A stretch of 22,261 bases of DNA, taken from the IMG/VR virus record IMGVR_UViG_3300027797_001606, positions 1 to 22,261 of that record. The stretch is one strand, 5' to 3'. Under the pieces are notes generated by a model. The model did no database searches, was not told the DNA's origin, and was given only the letters and a program-made list of their open reading frames with translations. Positions 1-22,251 of this stretch are shown here, one piece after another. Within the stretch, counting starts at the first letter, position 1, and every line of letters starts with the position of its first letter. A program made the position numbers and the translations under genes. The stretch is from a virus.

Positions 1-1227
1 ACGATCGCTATCAGACAAGCCACTGCCAACATTAACTCGTATGTGTCTTCCATTGTCATCTCCTTCACAGATTATAGCACCCAGTCGGCCTAGATTGCGA
101 CCAGTACCTTCTTCAAATCCCACAATGCTCAGGTCAACTGTGATTGTGGGTTTCCATTTCATCCACGAATCGGTGCGTTTGCACAGGTACGGTGCATCCA
201 TGCTCTTGATCATGATGCCTTCAAATCCACCCTCCACGGCAGCTTCGGCATAGCGTTGCATGATGTCATGTCCTTCGGCTGTGTCCAAATCCACATCCAG
301 GCCATTCATGATTTGGATGGGACCATCCGCAGGCAGTCGGGCACGTACACGTTCCAACATTTCAATGCGTTTGTGCTGTTGTGCATTATAGTGACCTTCG
401 ATAAAACTGTCCAGCGGTATGATATCAAACACATGATACACCATGCCATCTGTCACAGCATCCGATTTGCGGTGTGCTTGTTTCATCAGTTTTTGGAAAC
501 TCTCGCCCACAATCTCGCCATCCAGCACATAACTATAACTGGTGTGGTCTGGTAAGCCCAATGCCTTGCGATTGTCTTCAATTGCCTCGGCAATCTGCGG
601 AAAGTTTTCAAACTGTTTGCCATTGCGGCTGTACAGTGTAACATCCATGCCGTTGACCACTGCCAACACACGCACACCATCCAGTTTGCATTCCAGGCGC
701 TTGATGCCTTTTAACTTCTTGGGTTGGTCTGTGGAGTCTTGTGCCAACTGGCAACTGAACACAGGAATCCGCCATTCGGTCCGGCCCAGAACTTTGTTCA
801 AGGTCTTTTCTGAGATCCCGCATCGCAGGTCTTTGGTGATTACACGTCTGCAGAGATTGTTCCACTCTATACTATCAAAGCGTTTCATTGTTTCTGCAAT
901 AGCATCTCTGGCACGATGGCCGGATATTGATCGTGTGCGCAGGCCTTCCAGCAAGCCCCAGAACACAGGCCAAGGGTTTTCAGCATGTTCGATGCCTGAA
1001 CTTTCGGGCACCTGTTTCACATGGAATGTGTAGTAGGGATTGTAGGCTTGGTAGCAGTTGAACAAAAAACACTGGGCATTGGCACTGCCCAGTTTTGAGG
1101 CCATCAAGGCCTTTTCAATCACACGCTCTTTGTGCAAGCGACTGTCAGAACTTTCAAGGTCCCTTATCCAATCAGCTGCCACAGTGATACCGTTGAATTG
1201 AGTGTGTGTGAAGTCAATATCATTCAT
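1..1227 (-). CDS. ATP-dependent DNA ligase (T4 gp30-like), C-terminus cut by window edge
   Basis: Seals nicks in duplex DNA through a covalent enzyme-AMP intermediate, a core phage replication/repair function. The frame is open from the ATG at 1227 to base 1 (409 codons), so the C-terminal end is missing; T4 ligase is 487 residues. Nucleotidyltransferase motifs appear in order: motif I K181-L-D-G-V-R with the adenylated lysine K181 (T4 uses K159), a DGE motif III at 236-238, motif IV EGIMIK at 336-341, and motif V WMKWKP at 355-360. The first 150 or so residues form the helical DNA-binding region typical of this family (GIEHAENPWPVFWGLLEGL, then the CGISEKT segment). It starts 12 bases after the preceding gene's stop and has no clear Shine-Dalgarno. 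The family is certain from the motifs; ATP rather than NAD use is inferred from the T4-like architecture. Confidence 0.93.
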   Translation of the reverse strand, partial: MNDIDFTHTQFNGITVAADWIRDLESSDSRLHKERVIEKALMASKLGSANAQCFLFNCYQAYNPYYTFHVKQVPESSGIEHAENPWPVFWGLLEGLRTRSISGHRARDAIAETMKRFDSIEWNNLCRRVITKDLRCGISEKTLNKVLGRTEWRIPVFSCQLAQDSTDQPKKLKGIKRLECKLDGVRVLAVVNGMDVTLYSRNGKQFENFPQIAEAIEDNRKALGLPDHTSYSYVLDGEIVGESFQKLMKQAHRKSDAVTDGMVYHVFDIIPLDSFIEGHYNAQQHKRIEMLERVRARLPADGPIQIMNGLDVDLDTAEGHDIMQRYAEAAVEGGFEGIMIKSMDAPYLCKRTDSWMKWKPTITVDLSIVGFEEGTGRNLGRLGAIICEGDDNGRHIRVNVGSGLSDSDR

Positions 1228-11827: not shown

Positions 11828-12544
11828 TCACATATTTAGCAAGTAATACTGTTCGACCTTTTTCCACCATTGATCACGGTAATGCTCAAACTCCCGTCCT
11901 TCCAGCACAAATTCTTGGTACTCGGGAGGTTTTACCATGTTCATTTGCTCATCTAGTTCGGGTTTGACACACATCAAAACTACGCCTTTTTTGATTTTTG
12001 TCCCGTGTAGTTCGTTGTGTGCTTCGGCATAGGCACACAACTGCACAAAATAATCATCGATCCACTCGCGCTTTTTGGGTTTGTTGGTCTGCTTGTAGTC
12101 TAGGATGGCTTCTTCATTCAGGTGTATACCAGCGCCGTCTGTAGTACCTGCATACACTTTTGGGAAATACAAAGGAACTTCGATACCCCAAAATTCCGAA
12201 ACATTTTTTAAACCATGTTCTATAACCTTGTGGGCCATGGCATGACTTGCCCACGAGAATGGATTTGTGCCACGTTCTTTGATCACACCGTCTCGAACAT
12301 ACTGTTCAAGGTAGGTGTGCATACGTGTGCCACGATTGGCAGCTTCTGTTGTGATGGCCTGTGCTTGTTCGTGTCCCACTCGATTGCGCCAGTTTTGCAA
12401 GGCCTTTTTGCTTTCTTCGCTTTTGGTAGCATCAAGTATTGTGGTCACTGATGGTAACCGGTTGCCATCGGGAGTGGCATACAGTCTACGCCCGTTGACG
12501 TTTTCCCGGGGAATGGGCTGATAGTCAAATTTTGGATTGTACAT
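11828..12544 (-). CDS. PD-(D/E)XK exonuclease (RecB/MGME1-type)
   Basis: 238 residues. Motifs of RecB-family nucleases are visible: the helical opening PSVTTILDATKSEESKKAL with NWRNRVG, the H76 segment RGTRMHTYLEQY, E122 in GIEVPLYF, D136 in GTTDGAG, and the catalytic ILDYKQTNK (D149, K151) followed by QLCAYAEAHNEL (Q168, Y172). This order matches phage and mitochondrial MGME1-like single-strand DNA exonucleases of about 240 residues. Its ATG at 12544 lies 20 bases inside the end of the upstream radical SAM gene with no Shine-Dalgarno, so it is probably coupled. A role in recombination or DNA end processing is expected; a link with the radical SAM genes is only positional. Confidence 0.87.
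   Translation of the reverse strand: MYNPKFDYQPIPRENVNGRRLYATPDGNRLPSVTTILDATKSEESKKALQNWRNRVGHEQAQAITTEAANRGTRMHTYLEQYVRDGVIKERGTNPFSWASHAMAHKVIEHGLKNVSEFWGIEVPLYFPKVYAGTTDGAGIHLNEEAILDYKQTNKPKKREWIDDYFVQLCAYAEAHNELHGTKIKKGVVLMCVKPELDEQMNMVKPPEYQEFVLEGREFEHYRDQWWKKVEQYYLLNM
11833..11839 (-). promoter_or_regulatory. candidate late promoter (CTAAATA) for tail fibre
   Basis: Minus-strand CTAAATA whose last base lies 24 bases before the GTG start at 11808. It resembles the T4-type TATAAATA late element and shares GCTAAATAT with the site at 17604. No -35 box is needed for this class. It overlaps the end of the exonuclease gene. Confidence 0.45.
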
Positions 12545-13805
12545 GCGTTAAGTGGGAATTGTATATGTGTTGATGTGCGTGTGTCAACAAGTTAAAAAGT
12601 TTTGAATTTAGTACATAACTGTTGACCTTGGTTCGATTATCATAATCTGCAGTAAATTTAAGATAGTCTACAAAAGCCAATTCGGTATCTCGAGTATTGT
12701 TTTTTAAAATTTCAAGCATTGATATAAAATATTCATGCAATACTCGAGTGAGTTTGTATTTTTTAAATATGTTGTGGTCAACACACTTTTCCAGCGTCTG
12801 AATTAATATTGGTCGATACTGTGATGGAAGATTTTCCATCATCAGGTGTATTGGCTGATACAGATGTATACCGTTCAAACTTAGTTCAATCTGTGTTTGA
12901 TCTGCCCAGTTTTCCCACCAATCAAGATAATCCACAGCGTAAAAAATATTGTTCAATGAAAATACCGGAGTGACTTGAAATAAGAATTTTTCAGGATTTT
13001 GTGTGATTACCAAAGCAACTGTTTTTAAATTATTTTCAATTTTGTCAAACCGCGCAGGCCATCGCACATAATGATAATTGTCGCCTATGCTGTCAATGCT
13101 TGCTAAAACTTCTACTCGCCAAAACTGAGATAATTTTTCAACAAGGTTTTCTGTGAGATTTACCGTGAAATTGGTAGTTATTCTCAACCCGGTTGTGCTT
13201 GCTAAATTTTCGTCAATCAACCAATCAATTAATTTTAAAAATCCAGGCTGCAACATTGTTTCGCCGCCAATGGGATGCACAATAAATCTTTTATTGTCTT
13301 TGTGTTTAACGCGAATCATATTGGTTATCTCATTCCAATACAATTCATTCAATGAGATGTCACTGTCAGCCCCGGGGCTAACAGGAAAATCCATTATTTT
13401 TGCCCATAAGTTACTGTCGTCAGAATTGCAACTCCGACACGCCAAATTACACAAATTACTGAACCTCATTCCAAATTGGAATTCGTCAGTTTTGTTGCTC
13501 TGTTTAAATTGTTCCAATTCGTCCACTGAATAATGTGACATTAACTTTACACGTTCGGATTGTGCTTGATTGTTTTCTTCTAAATTACACCGCCAGCAAG
13601 ACTCTGGCAGCTTGCCCGATGCCATACTTGTTTTTATATTTTCTATAAAATTAAAATCCAACTCTTTATTTGAAAAAGAAGTGTCCAAATTACAACAAGT
13701 TGTGACTTTAAATTTACCATGATTCATTCTAAAATCTGACCGACTAATTGGTGCAACACAAAATGCAGAGTTATTTTTAATCCATTTAATGGTTTCTGTA
13801 CTCAT
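12525..13805 (-). CDS. radical SAM protein with N-terminal twitch (auxiliary Fe-S) domain
   Basis: 426 residues. The radical SAM cluster motif is C119-N-L-A-C123-R-S-C126 (CX3CX2C), followed by later core-like segments (HPIGGETMLQPGFLKLIDWL). Upstream lies an N-terminal cysteine set: C16 (FCVAP), C37-C38 (TTCCNL), C70 and C73 (ESCWRC). This fits the N-terminal twitch layout of radical SAM proteins, which would hold an auxiliary [4Fe-4S] cluster. Related twitch/SPASM enzymes modify peptides, sugars or small molecules; the substrate here is unknown. It is visibly A+T-rich compared with the flanking virion genes. The ATG at 13805 overlaps the IscA-type gene as ATGA, and the 3' end overlaps the exonuclease by 20 bases. 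Confidence 0.86.
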   Translation of the reverse strand: MSTETIKWIKNNSAFCVAPISRSDFRMNHGKFKVTTCCNLDTSFSNKELDFNFIENIKTSMASGKLPESCWRCNLEENNQAQSERVKLMSHYSVDELEQFKQSNKTDEFQFGMRFSNLCNLACRSCNSDDSNLWAKIMDFPVSPGADSDISLNELYWNEITNMIRVKHKDNKRFIVHPIGGETMLQPGFLKLIDWLIDENLASTTGLRITTNFTVNLTENLVEKLSQFWRVEVLASIDSIGDNYHYVRWPARFDKIENNLKTVALVITQNPEKFLFQVTPVFSLNNIFYAVDYLDWWENWADQTQIELSLNGIHLYQPIHLMMENLPSQYRPILIQTLEKCVDHNIFKKYKLTRVLHEYFISMLEILKNNTRDTELAFVDYLKFTADYDNRTKVNSYVLNSKLFNLLTHAHQHIYNSHLTHVQSKI

Positions 13806-14125
13806 ACTCTAAAACTTTCTCCGCAACCACAGCGGTCGCGTTCGTTTGGGTTGCTAAACTCAAAACCTTCATTCAGGCCTTGACGTACATAATCTACCTG
13901 TGTGCCTCGCAAATATACATCATGTTTCTTATCGACCAGTACACAGAAATTGTTCTGAGCATAATTTATAGTACCAGCATCAGGGTCATATTGTTTAACG
14001 TATTCTAACACGTAAGCAAGCCCTGAGCAACCTGTGGTTTTTACGCCCAGTCGTATGCCAGCGTAGCCTTTGGTTTGCACCAATTTTTGTATTTTGTTTT
14101 GAGCCTGGTCGGTTATGGTTATCAT
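13802..14125 (-). CDS. A-type Fe-S carrier (IscA/HesB family)
   Basis: Small Fe-S/iron carrier that passes clusters to apo-enzymes. I chose the ATG at 14125 (107 residues, same length as E. coli IscA) because it begins directly with MITITDQAQNKI; a longer frame to 14191 would overlap the upstream gene. The three invariant cysteines are present: C33 in TTGCSGLAY and C99-G-C101 in RCGCGESF. The SNPNERDRCGCGESF ending is standard for the family. It lies between two radical SAM genes, which need [4Fe-4S] clusters, and downstream of iscU. Among IscA, ErpA and SufA types the sequence alone does not decide. Confidence 0.93.
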   Translation of the reverse strand: MITITDQAQNKIQKLVQTKGYAGIRLGVKTTGCSGLAYVLEYVKQYDPDAGTINYAQNNFCVLVDKKHDVYLRGTQVDYVRQGLNEGFEFSNPNERDRCGCGESFRV

Positions 14126-14141
14126 AATATTTGATGAAATT

Positions 14142-15917
14142 TTACATAAATTCTGAACAAACATCTTCTGCCCATTTAACAAACTCAGCATAATTTTTAA
14201 ATATTTCTTTTAATGGCACCGTAGATTTGTCTTTGCATGATTTTACAATATGTAGTAAAAATTCTTTTCCGTGGTTTTTAAAGAGGTTTGCTGCACTTGC
14301 ATGTGCATCGGCAGCAACTGGTGCTATTGTTTCCCCTGCAAAAGATATTGTATAAACAAAATTATTGTCAACTGTCCAGTTGTGGTAAAGGTTGTCGCGC
14401 AACCTACAATAATTTTCACTTGTCAATAAACTGTCAGTTATCAATTCAAGTTTTTCACGTGTCAAGTTTAAATGTAAGTTTATCACAGACAATGCATGCA
14501 TAAACACACTTGTTACTTGCATTTCAACTAAATCAAGTTGACTAAAACTGATACATTTTTTTGGCATCACTGACGAATAAGTACGATGTCCCCAGTCCAG
14601 TCTGTTGCTTTCTATGTATTCGAATTGAAATTTATTTTGATAATTGGGGTCGTACAACGCAGGACTTGACGCCAGCGGCTCATTTAAAAAAATTATAGGT
14701 AATATGTTCTCTTCAATTAGTTGTAATAGAGTCTGTTTCCAGGTTTCTGGCGTTTGTCCAGGCAATCCATAAATTATCTGTGCTTTGATAATCAGATGCG
14801 GATGTGTTGTTTTTAATTCACGGGCTATTTTTACATGTTCGTCCCATCCAATGTCAGGACGATCAATGTTTTTCAGTACTTGTTGATTTGTATCCTGCAA
14901 TGAGAAATTTAAAGTTCTTGTGATCAGTCTACCTCTTGCCAAGGCATGGAATATTTTTAAATTGTTATTTTTGTTTAATTTGCTGTAATTGCCTTGAATT
15001 ATAAATTTGTTGTTTCCTTTGATATTTTTTTCAGCAAAATATTCAACCATGTCAACATCTTCGTTGTACAGTCCAACATTGGCATCCGACAGGTACACAT
15101 TTGTAAGGTCTAATTCTTCAAACAAATCAATTTCTTGTTGGTAAGTATTTTTCCGTCTTGATACCTTGGTCCCAAGTCCACCATTCCAGTCACAAAATGT
15201 ACACGAATATGGACAACCTCTTGTGACAGTATAAGGCATCCATACTTCTTTTTTAACTAATTTAGCTTGTTCTTTGAGTTGAGTTGCCATAACAGTAAAC
15301 ATATCTTTGTTATGAATGTAAGGACTGGTTTCGATCATTTTTACAACCTTGTAATCAGCAATGGTAGTTTTACCAGTTTTATGATTTTGCCAAGCACAAT
15401 TCGAAGTATTAAATGCAATCAATGGTTTTTTGGTTACTAAATGGGTTACAATATCAGCAAATGCCACTTCTCCTGGTCCATACACTGCATAATCAATGTA
15501 ATGATGATGTGTAAAAAATTCTTTGTTAATGTTAACATCAATGCTGGGGCCACCAGCAATGATTTTAAAACCATCCTTTAATTTACTTTTAATTCTTGAC
15601 AGTTGTTCACACAAATAATCATGATTCCAAATGTAATGACTGGTACATAGTATGTCTACGTCAGTCTGTTCAATTTGTTTGATTAATTCTTCGTCAGATA
15701 TTTCTTGTTGTATAGGGATCAACCATTCTAATTGATCTTTTATTTCTGGGCAAAACAATTCAATTTGCATTTTGAATTGTAATACCAGTGGGTATAACCA
15801 AGCCTTGGGCCAGTCTACAGGATTAGCATGATAGAATAATATTTTTAATTTGTTTGTTGTTGGCACATATTGGTCGTTTTGTTCAACAAAATTAAGTGGT
15901 TGAAGGAATGTCATCAC
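14142..15917 (-). CDS. B12-binding-type radical SAM enzyme
   Basis: 591 residues. A cobalamin-binding-type Rossmann domain occupies roughly 24-165: strand LKILFYHANP, then IDVDILCTSHYIW-like alternation, GFKIIAGGPSID at 116-127 and YGPGEVAFADIV at 146-157, the GGP and G.GE marks of these proteins. A link region (SPYIHNKDMF) leads to the radical SAM motif C235-P-Y-S-C239-T-F-C242 in TRGCPYSCTFCDW. The usual DxHxxG cobalt-ligand motif is not evident, so B12 could bind base-off or not at all. Family members do methylations, ring contractions and rearrangements; the substrate is unknown. The gene is strikingly A+T-rich (one sampled 60-base line at 14941 has 14 G+C). Its ATG lies 26 bases inside iscU. 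Confidence 0.88.
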   Translation of the reverse strand: MMTFLQPLNFVEQNDQYVPTTNKLKILFYHANPVDWPKAWLYPLVLQFKMQIELFCPEIKDQLEWLIPIQQEISDEELIKQIEQTDVDILCTSHYIWNHDYLCEQLSRIKSKLKDGFKIIAGGPSIDVNINKEFFTHHHYIDYAVYGPGEVAFADIVTHLVTKKPLIAFNTSNCAWQNHKTGKTTIADYKVVKMIETSPYIHNKDMFTVMATQLKEQAKLVKKEVWMPYTVTRGCPYSCTFCDWNGGLGTKVSRRKNTYQQEIDLFEELDLTNVYLSDANVGLYNEDVDMVEYFAEKNIKGNNKFIIQGNYSKLNKNNNLKIFHALARGRLITRTLNFSLQDTNQQVLKNIDRPDIGWDEHVKIARELKTTHPHLIIKAQIIYGLPGQTPETWKQTLLQLIEENILPIIFLNEPLASSPALYDPNYQNKFQFEYIESNRLDWGHRTYSSVMPKKCISFSQLDLVEMQVTSVFMHALSVINLHLNLTREKLELITDSLLTSENYCRLRDNLYHNWTVDNNFVYTISFAGETIAPVAADAHASAANLFKNHGKEFLLHIVKSCKDKSTVPLKEIFKNYAEFVKWAEDVCSEFM

Positions 15918-16287
15918 TGTGTTTTTTTCTGTAATCTTCCACGGCGGCTTTTATAGCATCTTCAGCAAGAATAGAACAATGAATCTTGACTGGTGGCAAT
16001 GCGAGTTCTTCAGCAATCTCTGAATTTTTAAGAGCTGCGGCCTGGTCAAGCGTTCGTCCTTTAACCCACTCGGTAACAAGAGAGGATGAGGCAATGGCAC
16101 TCCCGCATCCGTATGTTTTGAATCTGGCATCTGTTATAATTCCGTTTTCAACTTTGATCTGCAATTTCATCACGTCACCGCAGGCCGGTGCTCCTACCAT
16201 GCCTGTGCCAACAGAGTCGTCAATTTCAAACTTGCCCACATTACGTGGATTTTCATAATGATCAATTACTTTTTCTGAATAAGCCAT
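15892..16287 (-). CDS. iscU: Fe-S cluster scaffold IscU
   Basis: 131 residues from the ATG at 16287, which has GAAGGAAA upstream and reproduces the canonical MAYSEKVIDHYENPRNVG start. All functional residues are present: C36, D38, C61, H103 and C104, in GAPACGD, YGCGSAIAS and KIHCSIL; the LPPVK site for the HscA chaperone is at 97-101. From memory, identity to E. coli and betaproteobacterial IscU is very high, with only a short extra C-terminal tail (HSDDIPSTT). IscU builds [2Fe-2S] and [4Fe-4S] clusters from sulfur delivered by IscS, which is not in the window, so host IscS would have to serve. It is the first gene of a five-gene run. Confidence 0.97.
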   Translation of the reverse strand: MAYSEKVIDHYENPRNVGKFEIDDSVGTGMVGAPACGDVMKLQIKVENGIITDARFKTYGCGSAIASSSLVTEWVKGRTLDQAAALKNSEIAEELALPPVKIHCSILAEDAIKAAVEDYRKKHSDDIPSTT

Positions 16288-16303
16288 GTGATTTCCTTCG
16301 CTG

Positions 16304-16332
16304 ATTATAGCGTATTTACTGACAAGTGTCAA
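16304..16332 (-). promoter_or_regulatory. consensus sigma-70 promoter of the iscU cassette
   Basis: TTGACA (16327-16332), 17-base spacer, TATAAT (16304-16309) on the minus strand: both hexamers perfect and the spacing ideal. Predicted start near 16297, about 10 bases before the iscU start codon, just upstream of the GAAGGA ribosome site. A dyad TGACA-AG-TGTCA (16320-16331) covers most of the -35 box and could be an operator. Confidence 0.85.
16313..16318 (-). promoter_or_regulatory. candidate late promoter element inside the iscU promoter
   Basis: TAAATA within the 17-base spacer, 25 bases before the iscU ATG. It has the same spacing as the sites upstream of 11808 and 17579. If used by a phage late sigma factor, the cassette would be read late as well as by host polymerase. 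Confidence 0.35.
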
Positions 16333-16347: not shown

Positions 16348-16695
16348 GCCGCGGTCTTTGCCAGCGGCTGATTTGGCCGACGCAGCCACAATGTCTTGCG
16401 CCTTGTTCACAGGCATTTGAGTTGCACCAGTGTTGGCACCTTTGTACATGATCACACCAGGGTTGTTGGGATCAATTGGTTCCAGTACTGAGTCCAATGG
16501 GGGTGTGCTTACTACACTGATCACATTTCTTTGATTGACCGGGAAGCCCAGGCTTTGAGCAGCTGATATGAATGCATCAGTGCTGATTTGTTTTTGTGCG
16601 TTTTCGTTGTCGGCTCTGCCTGAAAGAAAATTCACCAGGCCCATCAGCTTGTTTGGGTCCAGTGAACTTGAATTTTCGACTTCGTCGATTCTCAT
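16342..16695 (-). CDS. 117-residue hypothetical protein, structural-module neighbour
   Basis: Starts at 16695 sharing a base with the upstream stop (TAATG). It opens MRIDEVENSSSLDPNKLMGL and continues VNFLSGRADNENAQKQIST; the middle is soluble (DAFISAAQSLGFPVNQRNVI), and the end is a flexible Ala/Ser/Lys tail (SAKSAAGKDRGV). No cysteine, no membrane span and no catalytic motif. A GVIMYKGANTGATQMPVNKAQ segment sits near the end. It ends the run of genes from 18730 and its stop codon lies in the Fur-like site ahead of iscU. It is probably a head- or scaffold-associated small protein given its neighbour, but I do not recognise a function. Confidence 0.72.
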   Translation of the reverse strand: MRIDEVENSSSLDPNKLMGLVNFLSGRADNENAQKQISTDAFISAAQSLGFPVNQRNVISVVSTPPLDSVLEPIDPNNPGVIMYKGANTGATQMPVNKAQDIVAASAKSAAGKDRGV

Positions 16696-17579
16696 TATCT
16701 ACGTGCTCGTCCCAGTGCGGCTCCAGCTGGTGCGGGTTCTTCAGCATCCATTTCGGCCCCCAAGTCAGCACCCACATCTGCGCCCACATCTGCGCCCACT
16801 TCGGCGCCCACATCTGCGCCCATTTCGGCGCCAGCAACTGGAGCGGCACCTGGCATGCCGCTGGCAGCCATGCTGGTGTCTAATGCAGCTGGTTGACCAG
16901 TCACAACACCCAAGGCTGTTTCCAGTTGTTGTTTGGAACCTTGCAAGTTTTGCACAAGGCCTTGCAATGCCGCAGTGACATCACTGTTGAATTGTGTGGC
17001 TTGTTCAATGCCAATTTGATTACGGATTGAGTCAACCAAGGCAGGTAGTTCTTTGAATTGCATCTCTGTTGTGTCTTCCAACATTGATTGCATTTTGTCT
17101 ACCATGTCTTGTGCAGCCAACACAACTTGTGCCTGCTGGACTTCTGATTCTTTCAACAATTGATATGCTCTACGCAAGCGACTTTCAGCCGTCAAGGTAG
17201 CTTGGGCATTGATTAATTCTTGTTCTTCAGGGGAAGGCTTCTGGCCTTTTGACAGTTTGTCTTTGGCTGCCTTGAGCTTGGCAGCAGCAGCTGGGTCTGT
17301 CATTGCCATGGCACCTGCAGGAGGTGCCATTTCTTCGCTCACACGGTGAGCCAGTGCCTGTTCCATCATGACCAGTTTCAAGTAAGCAGGGTTGCGTTCA
17401 CTGGTATGCCGACTTGAGCTGCGCTGATGTTCAGCAATCACACCACGCACACGCTTCAGCATGATCTGGGCTTCGCGCACTGTAATCTTGTTCACAGGCA
17501 TCTTGGTGCCGAAGTAACTTTCAAATACTTTAGCTACTTGGCGGCTTTTTTTTGGCGTGGCCAGTTCGGTTAATTTCAT
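16695..17579 (-). CDS. helical, scaffold-like protein with GAxx C-terminal repeats
   Basis: 294 residues from the ATG at 17579 (ATGA overlap with the previous gene and AAGAGGA upstream). Residues 1-85 are basic and helical. Residues 95-225 are rich in Ala, Glu, Gln and Lys with coiled-coil spacing (AAKLKAAKDKLSKGQK, RLRRAYQLLKESEVQQAQ). Residues 250-278 are a tandem GADV/GAEV/GADL repeat, acidic and flexible, before AEEPAPAGAALGRARR. The basic-helical-acidic low-complexity layout resembles prohead core or scaffold proteins of T4-like phages, which is why I propose that role; there is no diagnostic motif. The repeat is coded by 12-base units and may vary in number between relatives. Confidence 0.75.
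   Translation of the reverse strand: MKLTELATPKKSRQVAKVFESYFGTKMPVNKITVREAQIMLKRVRGVIAEHQRSSSRHTSERNPAYLKLVMMEQALAHRVSEEMAPPAGAMAMTDPAAAAKLKAAKDKLSKGQKPSPEEQELINAQATLTAESRLRRAYQLLKESEVQQAQVVLAAQDMVDKMQSMLEDTTEMQFKELPALVDSIRNQIGIEQATQFNSDVTAALQGLVQNLQGSKQQLETALGVVTGQPAALDTSMAASGMPGAAPVAGAEMGADVGAEVGADVGADVGADLGAEMDAEEPAPAGAALGRARR
16755..16832 (-). repeat. 12-base tandem repeat coding GAxx units
   Basis: Degenerate in-frame repeat with plus-strand core gcgcccacatct, coding GAEM, GADV, GAEV, GADV, GADV, GADL and GAEM. It lies inside the scaffold-like gene. The unit length is a multiple of three, so copy-number change would keep the frame. Confidence 0.8.
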
Positions 17580-19279: not shown

Positions 19280-21289
19280 TCAGCCGGCTGGCGGATTGTT
19301 TCTAGCCTTGTTTCTAGCGGTAAAGTCAAATCTATTCACAGCTTTGCCGTAGCCTGCAGGGGTAGCAAACACCCATCCTTCATTGCCAGGAACCTGTTGA
19401 TCCAATTTGCCCAGTAGATCCAACTTAAGATCGTGTAATAATTCAAACAATACAAAGGCCGCTTGTAGCGCACTTCTGTTGGAAGTGGGACTGTCAAGAT
19501 ACTGTTGTATATTGCTGTATTTTTGCGCAGTTTGTGTGCTCTGTAGCCATGCTTCAAATCCCGGGACCAAGTCGCTGAAATTGCCTGTGTAGGCACGGTC
19601 GTTGGGGTCAACACGTCGATTGATATAGTCCACTGCCAGTTTGGCAAAGTCAGTTATTTTCATTGCACGTAGTTCAGCAGGATTAAACAACATATTGATA
19701 GCAGGTCCTTGTGCTTGCAACACTTGTTTGATCTTGGACACATAAGGGTTTTCTTTTGCCACAGGCTTGGCATATATGGGCAGTATCAAAAACAAACCAG
19801 GTACCTCATTGAATTTCACGCCTTTCAACGGTTGTTTTTCTGCCCCAGCATCTTCGAACATGGTGTGAACTGCTACACCAACTTCACTGTTAACGATTGA
19901 TTTCCCCAGTGTGCTGTCTACAGGAATTCTGTAAGTCACAGTATTAGGTCTGAATACCAGCAGTCCAGCAGACTGATAAACCACGCCTGGCTCAATTTCT
20001 TGTTCTGTAGCCGGCAAAGGTTGATTAGTTTGGCCCCAGTACATCAGGTCACCCTTGACATAGCCTCTGAAATTTCGAGGAGTGGCTGCTTCCAACAGCG
20101 GCCAAACTGTTTGATAAGTGGGCAGTAATGTTTGCACTCGATTTGCTAGATTGCCCTTGGCGGCAGCATTGGCATCACGCTGTGAGAGATTGTTGGCAAT
20201 GGCCCGGGTGCTGGTAAACAAGCCATCATAGCCCACAGCACCAAATCCCGAATCATCTGTGAGCACAAACTCGCCAGTGGCAGGCTTGCGGCCAAATACC
20301 ACAGCAGGCTTGCCGTCCCATTTTACACTTGCTGTGGTTGAATCTTTGTTAAAGGCAGCCACAATGGCCAGGGCTTTCTTCACACCTGCTGTGCCTTCTC
20401 TAAACACATAGTCTTCCAGGTGTTCAATACCCTTGGCTCTGCCGCCCACGCCCACTGCGGCTGCTTCGTAAATGGTGTATGGATTGGCGCCGCCACGTTC
20501 TACTAGTGGTTGCATGCCTTGGTTGACAATTCTATCACGCAGTCGTGCCAGGAAGTAAGTGTCTGTGTGTTCCGTCACAGCATCAGGTTGCGGCAGGCCT
20601 TCTTTGTTCAGGTAGTCACGAAAGTCTTTGACCTTGGCTTCTTTGTCTGGGTCTCGGGTTAGAGCGGCAAAAATGCTTTCTACATTTTTGAGATCGTTCT
20701 TTGTGCGCCCACGACCCAACAATGTTTGGGCCACACGGTCTGGATCCATGCCGCCGTCCACCAATTGATTGCTAGTACGACTGAACATGCCATTGGCACC
20801 CACTTTGAGTCCCAGTTGCTTGGCAATACTGCTCATCAGCACATTACGATTCATGCCTTTGTACGCTGAACCTTCGCCGCCTGAGTAGAAGAATGTGCCC
20901 CAGTCCAGATTGGGAAAGAACATAAAGTCAGTTTGTACATAGCCCAGTTCAGGACGTCCTTGTATGGGTGTGCGCAAGTGAACTTCGCCACCTTTTTTGA
21001 TCCATTCAGCAGGCGGCAGTTTGTGGCTCACTATCCATTGTGTTAAAGTTGCAGCCAACTGTTCTTTTGACATTTCGCTGGTGTCTACCGCAAGATCCAT
21101 GTCACCTGATGTAGGCGCTTTGCCTGTGCTACCCAACCAACGATCACGTGGAAATTGCAACCCAGTGAGTTGTTCAATCCAGGCCACGGTAGCAGGCACA
21201 TCACTTTGATTGATGCGACCTGTGAGTGGCTGCCCATCTGCGTCTTTGAATACATTGCCGCCTTCTAGTAGTGTGCGTAGGCTTTTCAT
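19280..21289 (-). CDS. two-domain nucleotidyltransferase: Pol-beta-type NTase plus KxDG ligase-like domain
   Basis: 669 residues, ATG at 21289 overlapping the upstream stop as ATGA. N-terminal domain: G53-S-T-G-K in WLGSTGKAPTSGDMDLAVD with D63-M-D65, and a third acidic residue D121 in LGYVQTDFMFF. This is the Gx(S).DxD...D signature of the Pol-beta/MNT nucleotidyltransferase fold. C-terminal domain (about 300-560): K323-W-D-G in ASVKWDGKPAVVFGR, the motif I of covalent nucleotidyltransferases (ligases and capping enzymes), followed by DDSGFGAVGYDG and RGYVKGDLMYWG, which looks like motif III. Residues 170-300 are a helical linker. The substrate is unknown; RNA or DNA end modification or repair is a reasonable guess. 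I recall similar KWDGxPA proteins from other phages without assigned function. Confidence 0.82.
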   Translation of the reverse strand: MKSLRTLLEGGNVFKDADGQPLTGRINQSDVPATVAWIEQLTGLQFPRDRWLGSTGKAPTSGDMDLAVDTSEMSKEQLAATLTQWIVSHKLPPAEWIKKGGEVHLRTPIQGRPELGYVQTDFMFFPNLDWGTFFYSGGEGSAYKGMNRNVLMSSIAKQLGLKVGANGMFSRTSNQLVDGGMDPDRVAQTLLGRGRTKNDLKNVESIFAALTRDPDKEAKVKDFRDYLNKEGLPQPDAVTEHTDTYFLARLRDRIVNQGMQPLVERGGANPYTIYEAAAVGVGGRAKGIEHLEDYVFREGTAGVKKALAIVAAFNKDSTTASVKWDGKPAVVFGRKPATGEFVLTDDSGFGAVGYDGLFTSTRAIANNLSQRDANAAAKGNLANRVQTLLPTYQTVWPLLEAATPRNFRGYVKGDLMYWGQTNQPLPATEQEIEPGVVYQSAGLLVFRPNTVTYRIPVDSTLGKSIVNSEVGVAVHTMFEDAGAEKQPLKGVKFNEVPGLFLILPIYAKPVAKENPYVSKIKQVLQAQGPAINMLFNPAELRAMKITDFAKLAVDYINRRVDPNDRAYTGNFSDLVPGFEAWLQSTQTAQKYSNIQQYLDSPTSNRSALQAAFVLFELLHDLKLDLLGKLDQQVPGNEGWVFATPAGYGKAVNRFDFTARNKARNNPPAG

Positions 21290-22251
21290 AGTTGTCTAAT
21301 TTTTTTCAATAGTGTTCTGCTGGGATCAAAATTGCGACTCCAAGTTAAAGATTCGTTGAGTTTACTTGCCAGTGCCAATTTTATAGCAGCTTGGGTATCT
21401 GTACCCGGTGGTACTTTGGCCGCCAATGCCGCAGCCTGTTGTGGTGAATAACCAAGTCTTACCAGTGCTTGTTCTACATCGGATGGCTGTTGAGCAGCTG
21501 GGGGTTGTTGAGCAGCTGGAGGTTGTTGAGCAGCTGGAGGCTGCTGTGCCGGGGCAGGGGGCGGAGTTTGCTCAACAGACGATCCCAGCACGAATCGTCT
21601 ATATTCCTGCACATGAGCCGGATTGCTGGGGTCAAAAGGTTGGCCTAACACAGTAATTCCGCCATTGGCATTTATTTTTACAGTGTCTCTACCGCCTCTA
21701 CCAGCGGTGTTTTTAAAAGCCAAGTAGGCTGCACGATGTTCTGGATTGGCACCATTGTAGGGTTTTCCACCTATGGTTATTTTGCCCACCAGTCGTTGAT
21801 GCTCTGGATTGGCAGCATCATAAGGTACACCATCTATGGTTATTTTGCCTGTGCTGTCTGTGTATACTTCGTTCTTGGCATCCTTGGGCAGCAAATAACC
21901 CAAGCCCACCTTGTTGGCATTGTATGCCTGCATTGCATTGGCAATAGCGCCACCTATGTTGGCTTTTCTTCCTTGTGGCGCACCCATTTTGACCTTGCCG
22001 GCAGCTGCCAGTTCTGAATCACTTCCTGTGGCAGCTGCAGGCGCCGTTGCCGGTAGCTTACTAAACGGAGCCATCTGATCTTGTGCTATTTTTGCGGCAG
22101 CCGCTTGTTTAGCTTGTCTGATGTCTGCTGGAGTTTGAGCAGTGGTCACACTAGGCGCAGCCGGTGCTGGATCAATTCCTGTGGCAGGACTTGCTACAGG
22201 AGCACCTGTAGTTGACATGTTTGTCGGCATCATAGCAGGTTGCGCAGGCAT
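21286..22251 (-). CDS. low-complexity protein with NPxH repeats and a UBA/RuvA-C-like segment, possibly 5'-truncated
   Basis: At least 321 residues. The frame stays open through 22261, so the ATG at 22251 may be internal. Residues 1-90 are Pro/Ala/Thr-rich linker. Residues 136-222 hold three copies of a unit of the form KITIxGxPYxxxNPEHxxxY. Residues 235-257 are QQPPAA repeats. Residues 258-297 (DVEQALVRLGYSPQQAAALA, then KLALASKL) match the three-helix UBA-like pattern of the RuvA C-terminal domain: paired helices around an LGY turn. A basic tail, SRNFDPSRTLLKKIRQL, follows. Its role is unknown; the modular, flexible design suggests a scaffold or adaptor. Translation is coupled to the nucleotidyltransferase gene. 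Confidence 0.72.
   Translation of the reverse strand: MPAQPAMMPTNMSTTGAPVASPATGIDPAPAAPSVTTAQTPADIRQAKQAAAAKIAQDQMAPFSKLPATAPAAATGSDSELAAAGKVKMGAPQGRKANIGGAIANAMQAYNANKVGLGYLLPKDAKNEVYTDSTGKITIDGVPYDAANPEHQRLVGKITIGGKPYNGANPEHRAAYLAFKNTAGRGGRDTVKINANGGITVLGQPFDPSNPAHVQEYRRFVLGSSVEQTPPPAPAQQPPAAQQPPAAQQPPAAQQPSDVEQALVRLGYSPQQAAALAAKVPPGTDTQAAIKLALASKLNESLTWSRNFDPSRTLLKKIRQL
21489..21542 (-). repeat. three 18-base tandem repeats (QQPPAA units)
   Basis: Near-identical 18-base units at 21489-21506, 21507-21524 and 21525-21542 on the plus strand (gttgagcagctggaggtt), coding the Pro/Gln linker before the UBA-like segment. A fourth, diverged unit follows toward 21560. Confidence 0.9.
21731..21849 (-). 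repeat. two 56-base imperfect direct repeats coding NPEH units
   Basis: 21731-21786 and 21794-21849 share ctctggattggca-type and ctatggttattttgcc cores and code KITIDGVPYDAANPEH and KITIGGKPYNGANPEH. A more diverged third copy lies around 21605-21655 (GQPFDPSNPAH). This is intragenic duplication of a protein module rather than a mobile element. Confidence 0.8.

Follow-up and report, generated by a model that had tools for sequence, protein, structure and literature searches.

A candidate polymerase-X-like and ligase-like repair module of T4-like phages, fused in a freshwater phage gene

The window analysed here, positions 1 to 22,261 of the IMG/VR virus record IMGVR_UViG_3300027797_001606, is a 22-kb fragment that holds a freshwater phage gene (19280-21289, minus strand, ATG start) encoding a protein of 669 residues. 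As a sequence-only reading had proposed, this protein joins two different nucleotidyltransferase folds with conserved active-site residues in both: an N-terminal domain (N-domain) that is polymerase-X-like by fold, and a C-terminal domain (C-domain) that belongs to the family DUF6267 and resembles ligases. We propose, at a probability of roughly 45%, that the two halves form a 'fill and seal' repair pair of two enzymes, which is packaged in the capsid and which the fused lineages make as one precursor. The gene is laid out as follows.

19280..21289, minus strand: whole gene, 669 residues, with a polymerase-X-like domain, a linker, and a DUF6267 domain.
21263..21289, minus strand: putative leader, residues 1-9 (MKSLRTLLE), ending in L-L-E right before a conserved GG.
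20579..21262, minus strand: polymerase-X-like domain (palm and thumb), residues 10-237, from VIA and Foldseek; no Pfam match.
21095..21133, minus strand: GS...SGDMD, residues 53-65, with the metal-binding aspartates D63 and D65; conserved, with S or T at 54.
20927..20929, minus strand: D121, the third catalytic aspartate (VQTDFM); invariant.
20846..20869, minus strand: SAYKGMNR, residues 141-148; G145 and R148 invariant, K144 in 42 of 46 rows.
20429..20578, minus strand: linker, residues 238-287, largely predicted disordered; predicted local distance difference test score (pLDDT) below 50 across most of 238-277.
20498..20506, minus strand: L262-V-E264, between the domains, a possible site for the prohead protease; both L262 and E264 are invariant in the clade of the window protein (the window clade).
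20465..20473, minus strand: I273-Y-E275, second [LI]xE of the linker.
19310..20428, minus strand: DUF6267 domain, residues 288-660, ligase-like covalent nucleotidyltransferase, from PF19782 and weak Foldseek ligase matches.
20312..20323, minus strand: motif I, K323-W-D-G; K, D, and G invariant.
20045..20065, minus strand: motif III-like, G409-Y-V-K-G-D414-L; D414 invariant.
19400..19747, minus strand: helical insert between motifs III and IV, residues 515-630, in the AlphaFold model.
19331..19381, minus strand: motif IV, E637-G-W-V, and motif V-like K649-A-V-N-R653; E637, G638, and K649 invariant.

Conservation was assessed in an alignment of 99 rows, comprising fused relatives as well as relatives with the polymerase domain alone or DUF6267 alone, with identities as low as about 20%. 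In the N-domain, G53, G56, G62, D63, D65, Q119, D121, G145, and R148 are invariant in 46 of 46 rows, position 54 is S or T, and position 144 is K in 42 rows. In the C-domain, K323, D325, G326, and D414 are invariant in 74 of 74 rows, as are E637, G638, and K649 in every row covering them (one row is shorter) and, likewise, H290, E292, D293, and H475. The invariance of the catalytic positions speaks for two active enzymes, with neither half a relic. A chance match to the motifs was ruled out by this invariance among the 99 relatives and by the fold. All of the residues pointed out by the sequence-only reading (G53, S54, D63, D65, D121, and K323-W-D-G) lie at the positions given there, its GDLMYWG corresponds to residues 413-419, the predicted folds match nucleotidyltransferase families, clearly in the N-domain and more weakly in the C-domain, and both K323 and the DxD are conserved among homologues.

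The final AlphaFold model, built from the 99 rows, has a pLDDT of 89.3 with a mostly disordered linker. A first model that used 27 close relatives reached only a poor pLDDT of 68, and VIA gave no usable C-domain match with it. The relative placement of the two domains is not fixed by the model, because the predicted template modelling score is 0.61.

In the AlphaFold model, residues 15-204 match the palm and thumb of the DNA polymerases beta, lambda, mu, and TdT. VIA aligned 162 residues with Pol beta 139-335 at a Z-score of about 10 and a root-mean-square deviation of 3.5, and Foldseek matched Pol mu, TdT, lambda, and beta with a probability of 1.00, but with an E-value of only 0.008. The catalytic set of family X, consisting of GS, SGD-x-D, and a third D, is present in 46 of 46 N-domain rows (S or T at 54). 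We take D190 and D192 of Pol beta to be the equivalents of the SGDMD aspartates, D256 that of D121, and R283 that of R148; in the range of the VIA alignment, the position of SAYKGMNR corresponds to the F-N-K-N-M-R283 segment of Pol beta. The 8-kDa, helix-hairpin-helix part and the fingers are missing, the N-domain starting at the palm, about 14 residues before the match to Pol beta 139. No family was recognised for the first 285 residues in Pfam, NCBIfam, or PHROGs. These results indicate that the N-domain is polymerase-X-like, an assignment made by fold only; the Pol-beta-type signature noticed earlier in this part clearly agrees with the predicted fold and is narrowed to that class.

For the C-domain, the sole Pfam match of the whole protein is DUF6267 (PF19782, residues 288-660, E-value 4.2e-25, 89.3 bits against a cut-off of 27), the PHROGs match is phrog_455, and NCBIfam gave no match. 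Pfam assigns DUF6267 no function, and a literature search on DUF6267 found no paper. The sequence-only reading had known of no function for the protein, and this is to be amended in that the C-domain belongs to an existing, uncharacterised family. The motifs of covalent nucleotidyltransferases are present, with KxDG as motif I, D414 in motif III, E637-G638 in motif IV, and K649 in motif V, which reads K-x-V-x-R and not K-x-K; a long helical insert separates motifs III and IV. The Foldseek matches of the full-length model outside polymerase X, among those listed, are almost all ligases (the DNA ligases of T. gammatolerans and P. furiosus, an archaeal RNA ligase, a fungal tRNA ligase, and the ligase of African swine fever virus) and are weak, with E-values of 0.035-0.6. 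Because polymerase X chains occupy the top rows in both VIA runs, no ligase appears among them. The assignment of the DUF6267 half as a ligase-type covalent nucleotidyltransferase, as predicted from the model, is supported but weak: the motifs claimed from the letters are conserved, and the fold agrees more weakly than for the N-domain. From motifs and predicted folds, the most natural reading of the protein would be an end-processing and ligating machine, which had been one of the earlier suggestions.

The two domains also occur apart. With the whole protein as query, IMG/VR yielded 513 stretches that encode relatives; the closest 80 of these, together with the window's own gene, are all fused. 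A scan with an N-domain profile found more than 560 relatives, of which 80 were kept. Among these 80 loci, 64 have separate N-domain and DUF6267 genes in the same locus, as the proposed check for split genes had sought, 11 are fused, and 5 are without DUF6267 in the stretch examined. The separate pairs are mostly directly adjacent, many with a four-base overlap. In a maximum-likelihood tree of 49 N-domains, the fused and split forms are separated by five changes; the well-supported branches force at least three, and one change suffices in none of the bootstrap trees. These results indicate that fusion is one of several arrangements and not the rule, and that fusion or fission occurred at least three times. 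The fusion noticed earlier is real in this gene, and possibly a precursor that is cut. In cellular genomes (one per species), the single match was an N-domain gene starting MLVREILIEGGNVF in a Methylophilaceae metagenome-assembled genome (L279:4986-5951), which adjoins a helicase-like gene; this contig is probably a phage contig.

In two proteins, of 1094 residues (L135:2078-5362) and 1271 residues (L165:7944-11759), a cytidylyltransferase-like (HIGH-type) domain is added after DUF6267, the match in L165 lying slightly under the Pfam cut-off. Because this domain follows DUF6267, three nucleotidyltransferase folds may be joined in them. In cyanophages, DUF6267 is found alone, next to, or fused with a cytidylyltransferase-like protein (T4-GC190), and no N-domain was seen in the cyanophage DUF6267 loci examined. 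As separate observations, DUF6267 is annotated over two genes in S-PM2 (L085:4980-6759), GC71 and the start of GC190, and BFVD holds a 591-residue S-PM2 cytidyltransferase-like protein, possibly reflecting a frameshift or a difference in annotation or sequence. A 261-kb relative contig with a fused gene encodes a 540-residue protein (L286:18094-19716) that starts with the HIGH-type GGFHPFHAGH and has weak matches to cytidyltransferase and ParB-like families.

The frequent pairing or fusion of DUF6267 with a HIGH-type cytidylyltransferase domain of unknown substrate would suit a transfer of nucleoside monophosphate to a protein or small molecule, in host takeover or as a toxin, and not to nucleic-acid ends; both folds are also generally known from enzymes that nucleotidylate other targets. 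We regard this as very improbable, since the folds match polymerase X and polynucleotide ligases and the pairing of the two domains would otherwise be hard to explain. Nothing found points to the toxin or defence role that the sequence-only reading had also offered.

In the phages Phosso (Sinorhizobium) and Atu_ph07 (Agrobacterium), the N-domain has a gene of its own, immediately downstream of a divergent KxDG ligase-like gene; in PA5oct and its relatives, the two are separated by two other genes. The partner genes of these jumbo phages share the motifs E-K-[LI]-D-G, an IE[VI] or FEI segment, EG[VY]V, and K[VI][VF]D. A sub-threshold match to Pfam RNA_ligase (E-value 9.8e-4) was obtained with the Atu_ph07 partner, and the KxDG protein of PA5oct (446 residues) matches the model of the window protein by structure (E-value 3.5e-5), so that the pair of the jumbo phages seems to be a remote form of the pair described here. 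An hhalign comparison of DUF6267 with the jumbo KxDG family gave a low probability of 16-18%, with HLED, KxDG, and PN-x-I-x-Y aligned; the structural match of the PA5oct protein is the stronger result.

These partners also bear on an RNA-repair pair, in which the N-domain would restore missing nucleotides and DUF6267, as an RNA ligase, would reseal tRNAs cut by host defence nucleases, a concept that has been proposed for RlaP with RNA ligases (PMC7824862). The RNA_ligase match of the Atu_ph07 partner, the RNA ligase label that BFVD gives to a 324-residue Atu_ph07 protein, the PN-x-I-x-Y segment common to the jumbo partner and DUF6267, the tRNA and RNA ligases among the Foldseek matches, and the lack of an OB-fold (oligonucleotide/oligosaccharide-binding fold) after motif V of DUF6267 would all fit such a pair. 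The N-domain, however, resembles a DNA polymerase X, and a packaged repair pair fits DNA at least equally. Although the RlaP and RNA ligase pairs of jumbo phages likewise combine a Pol-beta-superfamily nucleotidyltransferase with a ligase (PMC7824862), membership of the N-domain in RlaP (PF10127) was rejected, with no match in 30 members, and Atu_ph07 holds a separate RlaP gene far away from its N-domain gene. RNA repair is a possible but rather unlikely alternative to the repair of DNA.

The evidence for packaging comes in part from the leaders and the linker. The gp21 protease of T4 cleaves after L/I-x-E, and the first ten residues of T4 internal protein III (IPIII) target the capsid, positions 4 and 7 acting in targeting and positions 8 and 10 in processing (PMC9026906). 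Many DUF6267 proteins carry leaders such as MLNFSGFLAE/D, MKSFTKYLNE/S, and MISFKTFIAE/A (slash, candidate cleavage site). The full T4 capsid-targeting register (4/7/8/10) is present in 36 of 98 non-redundant DUF6267-alone proteins, compared with 30 of 1304 other genes and 0.3% of shuffled leaders, and [LI]xE is present in 77 of 87 DUF6267 leaders, compared with 28 expected after shuffling the same letters. The N-domain leaders (45 non-redundant) have E at P1 in 44 cases and L, I, or V at P3 in all 45, before GG, as in the window protein, where L7-L-E9 precedes GG. Three further N-domains begin straight at M-GG or M-SG, suggesting that GG marks the mature start.

All 17 representatives of the fused proteins have an [LI]xE in the 30 residues that precede the DUF6267 core, against 7.2 expected after shuffling. 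These representatives are related, so that the counts are not independent, and they cover the separate fused groups; the rate in other 30-residue segments of the same proteins is 20%. With T4-type cleavage motifs both at the N-terminus and between the domains, the fused form may be a precursor that is cut apart, and the leader ending in L-L-E together with the [LI]xE sites of the linker suggests prohead entry and trimming.

The same type of leader was seen on other proteins. In these loci, it is borne by cytidylyltransferase-like and 5'-nucleotidase-like (NT5C) proteins. T4-like leaders are also found on a cytidylyltransferase and zeta-toxin-like kinase (L229:9200-10507) and on proteins at L206:4843-6207, L216:4924-5517, and L223:5354-5884, which comprise NT5C 5'-nucleotidases and a RimK-like ATP-grasp protein. 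Together, the leader-bearing enzymes make up a broader group that may be packaged. Atu_ph07 has, after the module, tandem related genes (L083:7591-9434) whose products have the N-termini MRLFQLLE and MRWHQLIE and recall ADP-ribosyltransferases, by eye only.

Virion data exist for related proteins. In PA5oct, the N-domain gene carries the annotation of a structural protein, based on electrospray ionisation tandem mass spectrometry; T4-GC190, encoded next to DUF6267, was detected in S-SM1 virions (PMC3037559), and the S-SZBM1 cytidylyltransferase was detected in the S-SZBM1 virion (PMC9146016). The latter protein bears the leader MRFRQFIIE/A. An S77 prohead protease was found in each of the five named phages that were tested, as well as in two related contigs. 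For the fused protein, no direct virion evidence was found.

In the mechanism that we propose, the polymerase-X-like half would add nucleotides at a gap or an end by two-metal catalysis, and the DUF6267 half would activate and join the nick via a lysine-nucleotide intermediate. Most T4-like phages encode the two halves in separate, often overlapping genes, and the lineage studied here would make them as one precursor. The protein would enter the prohead, where a T4 gp21-type protease would trim it and possibly split it, and the enzymes would be delivered with the genome to mend nicks, gaps, or ends of the incoming phage genome. We infer DNA as the substrate, as well as the catalysis, packaging, cleavage, and timing. 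A broader statement, that T4-like phages carry a polymerase-X and ligase module in the capsid and bring it into the cell together with the genome, that the fused polyprotein is cut by the prohead protease, and that DUF6267 is a ligase, is put forward tentatively and would be rather unlikely to hold.

Several results weigh against a packaged polymerase-ligase pair. No Pol X family of Pfam was found among 30 N-domain members at an E-value of 10, and sequence-profile searches of the PDB, with the N-domain as with the C-domain, gave spurious matches only, none of the N-domain matches being a Pol X. The best ligase match of the C-domain is weak (E-value 0.035, probability 0.69), and the OB-fold that follows motif V in DNA ligases is absent, there being no room for it because only 16-20 residues follow this motif. 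The phage encodes its own ATP-dependent DNA ligase (window 1-1227), so that a second ligase needs a special reason. The virion table of S-SZBM1 does not list the DUF6267 protein; this protein has no leader, so the pattern is what the leader idea predicts, weakly, since the sample is very small and low coverage might equally account for the pattern. Searches of the window-clade contigs (74-261 kb) for Gp23, S77, S78, and the T4 portal turned up no T4-type capsid protein, protease, or portal; T4-like baseplate genes lie near the start of the 261-kb contig, and these contigs may be incomplete.

The protein might instead be an ordinary replication-associated repair enzyme that is made in infection and remains unpackaged, the [LI]xE leaders reflecting something else. 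The gene lies close downstream of a replicative helicase, leaderless DUF6267 proteins exist, including the one unlisted in the S-SZBM1 virion, and the window-clade contigs yielded no prohead protease. We consider this unlikely in view of the leader and linker statistics, the annotation of the PA5oct N-domain as a virion protein, and the partner cytidylyltransferase in two virion proteomes (S-SM1 and S-SZBM1).

The packaged repair pair has counterparts among known systems. The closest known design is PgVPolX of Phaeocystis globosa virus, a fusion of a Pol-beta core with an NAD+ ligase that fills gaps and ligates in vitro (PMC5537341), which by analogy shows that a fusion of polymerase X and ligase works. 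In PgVPolX, the ligase is NAD+-dependent and recognisable by sequence, and the protein belongs to an algal giant virus in a base-excision-repair context, whereas the window protein has a DUF6267 ligase part, a palm and thumb core recognised by fold only, and capsid-targeting-like leaders. Bacterial LigD of non-homologous end joining likewise has polymerase and ligase in one polypeptide. The LigD polymerase belongs to the primase (archaeo-eukaryotic primase) superfamily and not to polymerase X. The C-domain is a member of DUF6267/phrog_455, the cyanophage T4-GC71, which in cyanophages stands alone or next to or fused with T4-GC190, with no polymerase-X-like partner seen there and no assigned function. 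T4 internal proteins and Alt likewise have a short N-terminal leader ending in [LI]xE, and many DUF6267 proteins fit 4/7/8/10; compared with IPIII, the 9-residue leader of the fused gene is outside the exact register, and its packaging and cleavage are proposed here. The whole protein is filed as a polymerase-ligase repair module and its C-domain as DUF6267.

The module follows the replicative helicase at a distance of one to a few genes in S-PM2, S-SM1, S-SZBM1, and Melnitz, and likewise in the window clade, where the helicase is known by its DnaB-like match to phrog_19; in Phosso, Atu_ph07, and PA5oct, it comes after a primase/helicase region. In the window, the start of the fused gene overlaps the stop of the gene upstream in ATGA, and two further genes were placed as follows.

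21286..22251, minus strand: upstream proline-rich gene with the ATGA overlap, belonging to the conserved neighbourhood.
16695..17579, minus strand: neighbour on the opposite side, assigned to the head/virion structural family phrog_14154 (E-value 3e-13).

Separately, window 12525-16332 holds in a row a NifU-like protein, two radical-SAM-like proteins, and, by eye, a small A-type iron-sulfur-carrier-like protein, forming an iron-sulfur and radical-SAM cluster in a phage.

Overall, these results offer a testable function for DUF6267, a family that is uncharacterised and widespread in cyanophages and other T4-like phages, marine and freshwater, and also for its polymerase-like partner, which escapes all family libraries. 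Packaging of the pair would mean that these phages carry a break-repair kit of their own along with the genome, which would be relevant to DNA damaged by ultraviolet light or cut by nucleases in sunlit water and to the escape from host defences. If the capsid protease does process a fused precursor, two enzymes would be delivered in equal amounts by an unusual route.
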